Positions 20,605 to 58,953 of a DNA stretch of 64,000 bases are shown here, piece after piece. The notes under the pieces were generated by a model. That model did no database searches, was not told where the DNA came from, and was given only the letters and a program-made list of their open reading frames with translations. This stretch comes from Buchnera aphidicola (Cinara kochiana kochiana). Lineage in GTDB: Bacteria; Pseudomonadota; Gammaproteobacteria; Enterobacterales; Enterobacteriaceae. Position numbers and translations under genes: made by a program. Where the stretch lies: contig NZ_LR217707.1 in assembly GCF_900698905.1 (NCBI RefSeq), positions 369,721 to 433,720 on the forward strand, written 5' to 3'. Within the stretch, counting starts at the first letter, position 1, and the number at the start of each line of letters is the position of its first letter.

Positions 20605-20963
20605 CTACCATTTAAAAATAAAATTAAATTGATTAATTTTCCTTTTAATACGAGTACTATTTAAAAATTTTACTGGTAATAAAAAATTATCACGATCTTT
20701 TAAACCACGTTGATACGCTGATTTTTTGCAAAAAAAAAATCTGTTATTTCATATAATAATAAAATTTTAAACGAAAGAGAATAATTATGTAAACAAATTA
20801 ACTCTGGTTTTTGATGTCGCATTAACTGTAAAACACCATCATTAATAAAAAAAAGAGAAATTTTCTTATAAAATAAAGAACAAGAAATAATAAAATCTAG
20901 TCCTTCTTTACTACAAGTATCTCCGTGTGGAGAATGAGAAAAAATAAAAGCAATTGATTTCAT
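20605..20963 (-). pseudogene. tusC: TusC, frameshifted at a ten-T run (possibly rescued by slippage)
   Basis: The first 79 or so residues match TusC closely: MKSIAFIFSHSPHGDTCSKEG, then FINDGVLQLM and a QKPE segment. At 20730-20739 the coding strand has exactly ten T in the codons for a Phe run. In the DNA frame translation then runs to a stop after about nine unrelated residues (87 in all; E. coli TusC has 119). With eleven T the frame continues as CKKSAYQRGLKDRDNFLLPV to a stop at 20605, giving full length and placing tusB 11 bases downstream. The rest of the gene is intact, which argues for continued selection and rescue by polymerase or ribosome slippage, or for a sequencing error in the run. 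The full extent is given here; the unshifted stop is at 20700. Confidence 0.85.
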
Positions 20964-47850: not shown

Positions 47851-48698
47851 TTAATAATGAATAATTCCATCATATACATGTTGTGCTTCTCCTGACATAT
47901 ATAACTTATGTCCCAAAAATCCAGTCCAATCAATTTTTAAACAACCTTGCTGTAAAATTACAGTCACATGATTAGTTAAATTTTTATTCCGTATTCCTGC
48001 TGCAACAGCTGCGCAAGCTCCGCTACCACAAGCTTGAGTTTCTCCAACATGACGTTCATATACACGTAATAAAATTTTTTTTTTTGATAATATTTGCATA
48101 AAACCTACATTAACGCCTTCAGGAAATAAAATATGTTGTGATAACTGTAAACCTATTTTATTAACTTTGACAGTTGTAATATCATCAACTTGAATAACAC
48201 AATGAGGATTTCCCATAGACACTACACTAAATATATATTTTTTTTGATCAATTGTAACAGAATAATATAATTGCGCAGTAGTGTATGTAAATGGAATATA
48301 TTTAGGCGTAAAAATTGGTTCACCCATATCTACTTTAAAAATGTTATTATTGACATGTTCTAAAAATAAATATCTATTTTTGGTGCTAACACAAACTTTT
48401 TTTTTATTAATTTTTTTTTTAATAAACAAATAATATGCAATACATCTAGCGCCATTTCCGCATTGCTCAACTTCTAAACCATTAGAATTAAAAATTCTAT
48501 AATGAAAATCAGCTTGCTGACAAATCGATTTTTGAAGTATTAGTAACTGATCAAATCCAATTCCTAAATATCTATGTGACCATTTCTGTATTAATTGCGA
48601 AGAAAAAAAAAATTATTTTTAATTGAATCAATCAAAACAAAATCATTTCCTAAACCATGCATCTTAGAAAAGAATACAGTATTTTTTTTAAAAAACAT
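47851..48698 (-). pseudogene. dapF: Diaminopimelate epimerase, frameshifted at a ten-T run (possibly rescued)
   Basis: DapF converts LL- to meso-diaminopimelate for lysine and peptidoglycan. From the ATG at 48698 the minus strand reads MFFKKNTVFFSKMHGLGNDFVLIDSIKNN, the correct N-terminus. The coding strand then has exactly ten T (48603-48612) and the frame ends three codons later. One added T restores SSQLIQKWSHRYLGIGFDQLL, followed by the intact remainder. Both catalytic cysteines are present, in QCGNGARC and QACGSGACAA, as are VVSMGNPHCVIQVDD and the ending HVYDGIIHY. The second part has no usable start of its own near the break, because a stop lies just before the T run. The gene also has in-frame A runs of ten (48411) and eleven (48075). 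The preserved catalytic core argues for function through slippage. Sequencing error is the alternative. Confidence 0.9.
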
Positions 48699-57744: not shown

Positions 57745-58953
57745 ATGAAATTTCCTATTTATTTAGATTATGCTGCTACTACTCCTACAGATCCTAAAGT
57801 AAAAAAAATAATGAATAAATATTATTCCATAAATGATATTTTCGGAAATGCAGCATCTAGATCTCATAAATTTGGATGGGAAGCAGAAGAATCAGTAGAT
57901 ATAGCAAGAAATGAAATAGCCAAATTAATTAATTCTGATTCCAGAGAAATTATTTTTACTTCTGGTGCTACTGAATCAAATAATTTAGCAATTAAAGGAA
58001 TATATGAATTTCATAAAAATAAAAAAAATCATATCATTACAAGCCAAATAGAACATAAATCAGTACTAGATTGTTGTCGATACCTAGAATATAAAGGGTG
58101 TCACGTAACATATATAAAACCAAATAAATACGGTATTATTGATATATCAAAAATAAAAGAAGCTATTAATGAACATACATTATTGATTTCAATCATGCAT
58201 GTAAATAATGAAATTGGATCTATTCAAAATATTAAAAAAATAAGTCATTTTTGTAGAGAAAAAAAAATTTTTTTTCATGTAGATGCCACACAAAGTATTG
58301 GAAAAATAAAGATAGATATAAAAAAAACACCAATAGATTTACTGTCATTTTCTGCTCATAAAATATACGGACCAAAAGGAATTGGAGCATTATATGTATG
58401 TCTTAAACCGAGAATTCGATTGTCACCGCAAATACATGGTGGTGGACATGAAAGAGGATTTCGTTCTGGAACATTACCGGTTCATCAAATTGTTGGTTTT
58501 GGAGAAGCATGTAAAATATTAAGAAAGAAAATGAAAGATGATATTTTACATACTAGATATTTACGCAATATACTATGGAATGGTTTGCGCGATATTCAAG
58601 AAATTTATTTAAATAGTCACTTTGATTATGTAGTTAACAATATACTTAATATTAGCTTTAATTATATTGAAGGAGAATCACTATTAATGGCTTTGAAAAA
58701 TTTAGCTGTATCTTCTGGATCTGCATGTACATCAGCAAGTCTAGAACCATCATATGTTTTGCGAGCTATAGGTGTAAAAGATGAATTAGCTCATAGTTCT
58801 ATTAGATTTTCTATTGGACGGTTTACAACATCAAAAGATATTAAATATGCTATAATAGCAATTAAAAATGCAATTGAAAAATTAAGAAAACTTTCTCCTC
58901 TTTGGGAAATGTTTCAATCTGGTATTAAAATGGATAAAATTATTTGGAGTTAA
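57745..58953 (+). CDS. iscS: Cysteine desulfurase IscS
   Basis: A PLP enzyme that supplies sulfur for Fe-S clusters and tRNA thiolation. The start [17 protein letters not shown], the PLP-Lys in [18 protein letters not shown] near residue 206 and the mobile-loop Cys in [19 protein letters not shown] near 328 are intact. Length 402 (E. coli 404). A good AAGGA precedes the ATG. It starts a reduced isc operon with no iscR repressor upstream, so [Fe-S] feedback control by IscR is lost. It feeds IscU and also the TusBCD relay. Confidence 0.98.

Follow-up and report, generated by a model that had tools for sequence, protein, structure and literature searches.

The dapF gene of this Buchnera genome raises the question of whether it has been lost or is still read into a full-length protein. 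It lies within a stretch of 64,000 nucleotides (here called the window; G000:C1:369721-433720), which is part of a genome of 442,301 bases. On the minus strand, dapF contains a run of exactly ten T (A10 on the plus strand) that is preceded by AA and followed by C. Frame 0 reads MFFKKNTVFFSKMHGLGNDFVLIDSIKNNFFFLRN and then reaches a stop, so that the conventional reading ends after 35 codons, while the remainder of the gene is open over 253 codons in the shifted frame (Table 1). The original prediction, made from the sequence of the window, was that this run breaks a gene that is otherwise intact and that a shift at the run recovers a full-length DapF with both cysteine motifs. Both parts agreed with our reading. 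The tail alone scored 237 bits against the NCBIfam DapF model (TIGR00652; cutoff, 114.65) and contains both motifs (CGNG and CGSGAC), and it was identified as DapF on this basis. The two cysteines are the catalytic residues of the enzyme. The in-frame A10, A9, and A11 runs that had been described were also found, together with two A8 runs.

Table 1. Features of dapF and tusC in the window (positions are those of the window)
Feature	Position	Strand	Basis
T10 run of dapF (U10 in the transcript); frame is short by one base	48603..48612	-	sequence reading and 16-genome comparison
dapF head, frame 0; 35 codons from ATG (48696-48698) to premature TAA, with GLGNDF motif	48591..48698	-	
dapF tail, shifted frame; 253 open codons, with motifs CGNG and CGSGAC	47851..48612	-	
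A10 run in dapF tail, in frame	48411..48420	-	
A9 run in dapF tail, in frame	48397..48405	-	
A11 run in dapF tail, in frame	48075..48085	-	
T10 run of tusC; frame is short by one base	20730..20739	-	
tusC head ORF, 87 aa; NCBIfam NF001238 TusC, 97.9 bits (cutoff, 79)	20700..20963	-	
tusC tail, shifted frame; begins FFFCKKSAYQRG, resembles C-terminus of in-frame species	20605..20739	-	

We compared dapF across 16 genomes of the genus, all of which had a Pfam DapF match above the cutoff. The GLGNDF segment, the run, and the frame of the tail were located in each. Exactly T10 with the same shift was present in 12 genomes (G000, G002-G009, and G013-G015). Three genomes had T11 and an in-frame dapF (G001, G010, and G011), and the run was lost in the remaining one (G012), in which dapF is also in frame. 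A shift at an identical place in 12 of 16 genomes is beyond chance. The tails of the 12 T10 species were open over 253 to 257 codons, and the tail proteins aligned over 253 columns with a mean column identity of 76%.

A tree built from 27 single-copy proteins (9,453 columns; every support value at least 97) placed each T11 species as sister to a T10 species (i.e., G001/G009, G010/G005, and G011/G007). The dapF states were scattered over this tree like shuffled labels (2,000 of 2,000 shuffles required no more changes). Nine species that group together were all T10, across a branch length of 0.82 amino-acid substitutions per site. Under outgroup and midpoint rootings, parsimony required four changes with T10 ancestral and five with T11 ancestral (seven with T11 ancestral on the tree as printed), and the direction of the T10/T11 change is therefore unsettled.

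Selection on both parts of the broken gene was estimated from nine pairs of T10 species. The dN/dS of the tail was 0.11 to 0.32 (tail dS, 0.21 to 0.55), and that of the head was 0 to 0.34. Among genes with at least 80 shared codons, dapF ranked one third to three quarters of the way up by pN/pS (e.g., 22 of 69, 49 of 67, and 95 of 136). Its constraint was slightly looser than that of the median gene in seven of the nine pairs and was otherwise ordinary. The statement that codons downstream of the run show no decay was thus borne out by the tail dN/dS in all nine pairs and by the open tails of the 12 T10 species. Neither lost constraint nor further disabling changes, which would mark a pseudogene, were found in dapF. 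The gene instead shares three features with those rescued by slippage: one indel within an extended A or T tract (T10 where T11 would be in frame), a frameshift kept across lineages (12 of 16 genomes), and an otherwise intact sequence under purifying selection.

The genes around DapF differed in their preservation. The lysA gene was above the cutoff in all 16 genomes, with a main match free of inner stops (in G010, an extra piece at the gene start was split off). Matches to murE were free of stops in eight genomes, contained one stop in G000 (G000:C1:165663-166961), were reduced to a remnant in G011, and were absent from six; none of the 16 genomes reached the curated cutoff for murE. The wall pathway therefore appears to be missing from several species, leaving lysine as the use of DapF that we infer to be common to all 16. 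As a side observation, all four species with an in-frame dapF had no murE match or a remnant only, compared with 3 of the 12 T10 species (4 of 12 if the stop in G000 is counted), a contrast that is confounded by relatedness.

A second T10 run that is one base short of frame was found in tusC. TusC has a role in thiolation of the tRNA wobble position, a modification that itself influences how well the reading frame is maintained. Across the 16 genomes, tusC had a one-short T10 in seven, an in-frame T11 in six, and an in-frame T10 in three; the last three owe their intact frame to a change in the base before the run's other T. At least five changes were required by parsimony. A T11 ancestor was cheaper under outgroup and midpoint rootings (5 versus 6 to 7 changes), and a one-short T10 ancestor was cheaper on the tree as printed (5 versus 6). 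The tusC states were clumped on the tree (58 of 2,000 shuffles), and the tail is short, with noisy dN/dS values (0.18 to 1.78). Two further genes had a one-short T10 in a single species each. The first, a dUTPase-like gene named from a match below the curated cutoff, was one short at T10 in G006, in frame with T11 in its close sister G008, and in frame with T10 in G000, G013, and G015. The second was trpS in G010. This genome contains many scattered single-base frameshifts, that in trpS included, which may reflect errors of sequencing in an older assembly, and the trpS case is therefore weak.

We then surveyed runs in a frameshift-tolerant manner across 145 gene groups (9 of 154 were dropped because of overlapping open reading frames), retaining 1,665 of 1,812 aligned gene copies. 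The sampled sequence came to about 60 kb per genome, extended by 100 kb (to 160-164 kb) in 8 of the 16 species. Only runs flanked on both sides by 15 or more aligned residues with an identity of 35% or higher were counted, and ambiguous rows with runs of at least 8 (105 A-run and 27 T-run rows) were left out of the comparison. T10 copies were in frame in 26 cases, one short in 21, one long in none, and ambiguous in 4. The 21 one-short copies comprised dapF (12 copies), tusC (7 copies), and the dUTPase-like and trpS copies described above. A10 copies were in frame in 425 cases, one short in 2, one long in 1, and ambiguous in 16. The 10 T11 copies were all in frame with none shifted, and T8 and T9 copies combined were in frame in 441 cases, one short in 3, one long in 2, and ambiguous in 23. 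The one-short bias was thus seen at T10 only.

The same tendency was apparent when sites were counted. Five T sites were in frame at a length of at least 11 in some species; three of these were one short elsewhere and none was one long. Of 221 such A sites, four were one short and four were one long. The difference in one-short sites gave a Fisher p of 0.0002 by a test that takes sites as independent, and independent T sites are few (two strong genes and the single-species dUTPase-like case in G006). When 424 long-run sites (23 T and 401 A) were ranked by how many species had at least 10 bases in the run, dapF (15 of 16) and tusC (16 of 16; 14 after filters) headed the list. The runner-up T site reached this length in 6 of 16 species. 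Among A sites, the maximum was 11 of 16, or 7 of 8 in the portion covered for eight species. TTC was present in 23 of 91 FFF tracts elsewhere versus 0 of 31 in the dapF and tusC runs; this codon purity is no more than suggestive, given that the runs were noticed for their purity and that related species are not independent. Among A runs, lysine-coding tracts of up to 18 stayed in frame, and very long A runs were common in the 16 species and seldom shifted. An A13 run that is one short was observed in three sister species (G002, G004, and G014) at about 58350-58430 of the joined 60-kb stretches, in a gene that we take to be hscA.

Given that the same fault recurs in most relatives and that the protein remains under selection, the fault is very probably corrected each time the gene is read. 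The original prediction proposed that this occurs by polymerase slippage at U10, and slippage is the best-supported reading on the strength of the T10 shared by 12 species, the purifying selection, and the concentration of one-short copies at T runs. We consider it probable, from these comparisons of sequences, that the dapF and tusC frameshifts are ancient and have stayed viable through the insertion of one U by transcriptional slippage. RNA polymerase crossing the T10 of dapF would often add one U, such that part of the mRNA would be U11 and would encode full-length DapF. A genomic T11 would in turn yield some out-of-frame U12. The two states would be nearly equal in effect because T10 would give some U11 and T11 some U12, and replication slippage could carry lineages from one to the other. 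In a T10 lineage, rescue would depend on the uninterrupted run itself, and any interruption would end it; point mutations in the run would thus be selected against, and the run would be locked in place. The tusC run would behave in the same manner.

Published measurements of polymerase behavior, as given in the accessible portions of the two studies cited here, fit much of this scheme. Slippage by the Escherichia coli enzyme requires at least 7 T or a greater number of A and has a strong poly(T) bias, with A runs slipping less than T runs and insertions rescuing about 5 to 10% at T7/T8 (PMC6260861). Deletions at T8 also reach about 10% (PMC6260861), and the restriction to one-short runs is therefore not fully predicted. 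The lesser slippage reported for A runs also bears on the further suggestion of the original prediction, that the in-frame A runs of dapF would make its mRNA pool very mixed. In the A/T runs of Buchnera, insertions are the prevailing slippage error of transcription and become more frequent with run length up to 11; the accessible text of that report states that a restored frame was detected in no case (PMC5574713).

The correction could instead be made by the ribosome, through a -1 slip on a U UUU UUU heptamer lying in frame 0 inside the U10, which we regard as unlikely and rank second, after polymerase slippage. All 12 T10 copies of dapF and all 7 one-short copies of tusC carry the heptamer in the required phase. 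It conforms to the X XXY YYZ pattern within AAU UUU UUU UUU, and a -1 shift on it would yield a protein identical to that from an mRNA with one extra U. The 60 nucleotides that follow the run folded at z scores of -2 or lower relative to shuffled sequences in 4 of the 15 run-bearing species (G003, G005, G006, and G014), and the predicted pairing begins 5 to 7 bases past the run in the first three of these; pairing this close to the run was not predicted in G000. However, a Shine-Dalgarno-like motif was found upstream in none of the 15 run-bearing sequences, and the recurring core stem lies about 20 bases past the run, in conserved codons. This stem was not the predicted fold in three T10 species (G000, G009, and G013) or in G011 (T11), but it was predicted in G010, which is also T11. 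Ribosomal slippage would also leave the preference for T over A without an obvious reason; the textbook -1 frameshift site of bacteria is A AAA AAG.

Polymerase slippage could also be more than a tolerated remedy. The T10 would then be a maintained element, favored in most lineages, at which slippage sets a usefully lower output of DapF (and TusC), i.e., a recurrent, length-tuned expression device of this genus. We hold this to be improbable, although it fits the top-ranked conservation of both runs and the uniform T10 of dapF in the nine grouped species. Such a role may be connected with loss of the wall pathway, a connection that is confounded by relatedness.

A simpler account is that dapF is inactivated and decaying and that lysine is supplied by a co-symbiont or the host. 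The early stop in frame 0 agrees with this, and second symbionts are frequent in such aphids according to the accessible part of a study of Cinara (PMC6908640). Decay is nevertheless very unlikely in view of tails of at least 253 open codons in 12 species, purifying selection on both head and tail, and a lysA above the cutoff in every genome. A dapF pseudogene was rejected on these three lines of evidence.

An artifactual collapse of T11 to T10 in sequencing or assembly is similarly remote. Homopolymers are prone to error, and the dapF and tusC states covary, dapF being T11 only where tusC is T11 (3 of 3; Fisher p of 0.045 among 12 species with relatedness uncorrected and G002, G004, G012, and G014 left out). 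Against this, in-frame coding A runs of at least 11 numbered 4 to 88 per genome in the sampled genes (24 in G000), whereas frame-shifted A runs of this length numbered 0 to 2 (one in G000, an A17 that is one base long). One-short A10 runs occurred in 2 of the 16 genomes (once each in G005 and G011) and not in G000. Errors of this type would affect both strands alike, and runs of 12 T were present in all 16 assemblies. Collapse is thus unlikely because of both the recurrence of T10 in 12 species and the control offered by in-frame A runs. Least plausible is a truncated but working DapF that initiates inside the gene after the run: the tail retains both cysteine motifs and a GTG or TTG is within reach in 3 of the 12 T10 species, but the interval from the run to CGNG contains no ATG, GTG, or TTG in the other nine, for which standard internal starts were rejected, and the upstream GLGNDF segment, which holds a substrate-binding Asn, stays conserved.

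Homopolymer rescue of frameshifted endosymbiont genes is already known, and we compare dapF here with the cases as described in the accessible portions of the cited sources. Poly(A) rescue in endosymbionts (Tamas et al. 2008) involves 12 to 50% corrected transcripts according to a review (PMC5009743). Like those genes (PMC5009743, PMC3164680), dapF belongs to an AT-rich insect symbiont and carries a long-run indel in an otherwise intact gene. In the poly(A) system, extra bases in the mRNA restore the frame, as they probably do in dapF; the dapF run differs in that it consists of T and has the same shift in 12 species. Homopolymer shifts in poly(A) and poly(T) have similarly been proposed to be corrected by slippage in Blochmannia, in which a dnaX frameshift is common to two species (PMC3017870). 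Unlike these cases, the dapF site has been traced across 16 species, among which T10 and T11 differ repeatedly, and is accompanied by an A-run control. Homopolymeric frameshifts that recur in one gene are also reported for Buchnera of other aphids, e.g., in murF, which was read as four independent inactivations; 42 of 69 pseudogenes from four genomes were confined to a single genome and caused by homopolymers (PMC3164680). dapF shares the kind of lesion and its recurrence with murF but, unlike it, repeats an identical run length under purifying selection.

Judging from titles and the beginnings of abstracts, we found no report in the literature of a dapF or tusC shift in this clade, and the main text of the paper on Cinara, Buchnera, and Erwinia (PMC6908640) contains no mention of dapF, frameshift, homopolymer, or slippage. 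As far as these searches show, four elements are new: the cases of dapF and tusC in this clade, a comparison as deep as 16 species, T10/T11 differences that recur in both genes, and the bias of one-short runs toward T over A. Given that dapF is easily taken for a pseudogene, most of these symbionts would be wrongly predicted to be unable to make lysine. The 16 species, with T10/T11 differences in two genes, constitute a natural experiment on how much transcriptional error can be tolerated. The same set bears on whether T runs, and not A runs, are required for rescue, as the E. coli polymerase would predict, and the question of whether such frameshifts are tolerated or selected becomes directly testable in paired T10/T11 species.

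Outside the genus, dapF was examined in an even sample of 392 genomes of the family, 363 of which had a dapF match; 78 small genomes were picked from these. The gene was split in three. Two of these belong to one Buchnera-like genus (L186/L187 in G361 and G416) and are one short at a different site, with A11 and A10, respectively, and an open tail; the third (L291 in G139) is one short near an A9. dapF has therefore been hit repeatedly, and A runs can take part. These A-run cases and the hscA-like case in three sister species are points against the transcriptional slippage reading. Of the other small genomes, 74 had a single match without a stop, and the last (G154) had one TGA within an otherwise unbroken DapF match.
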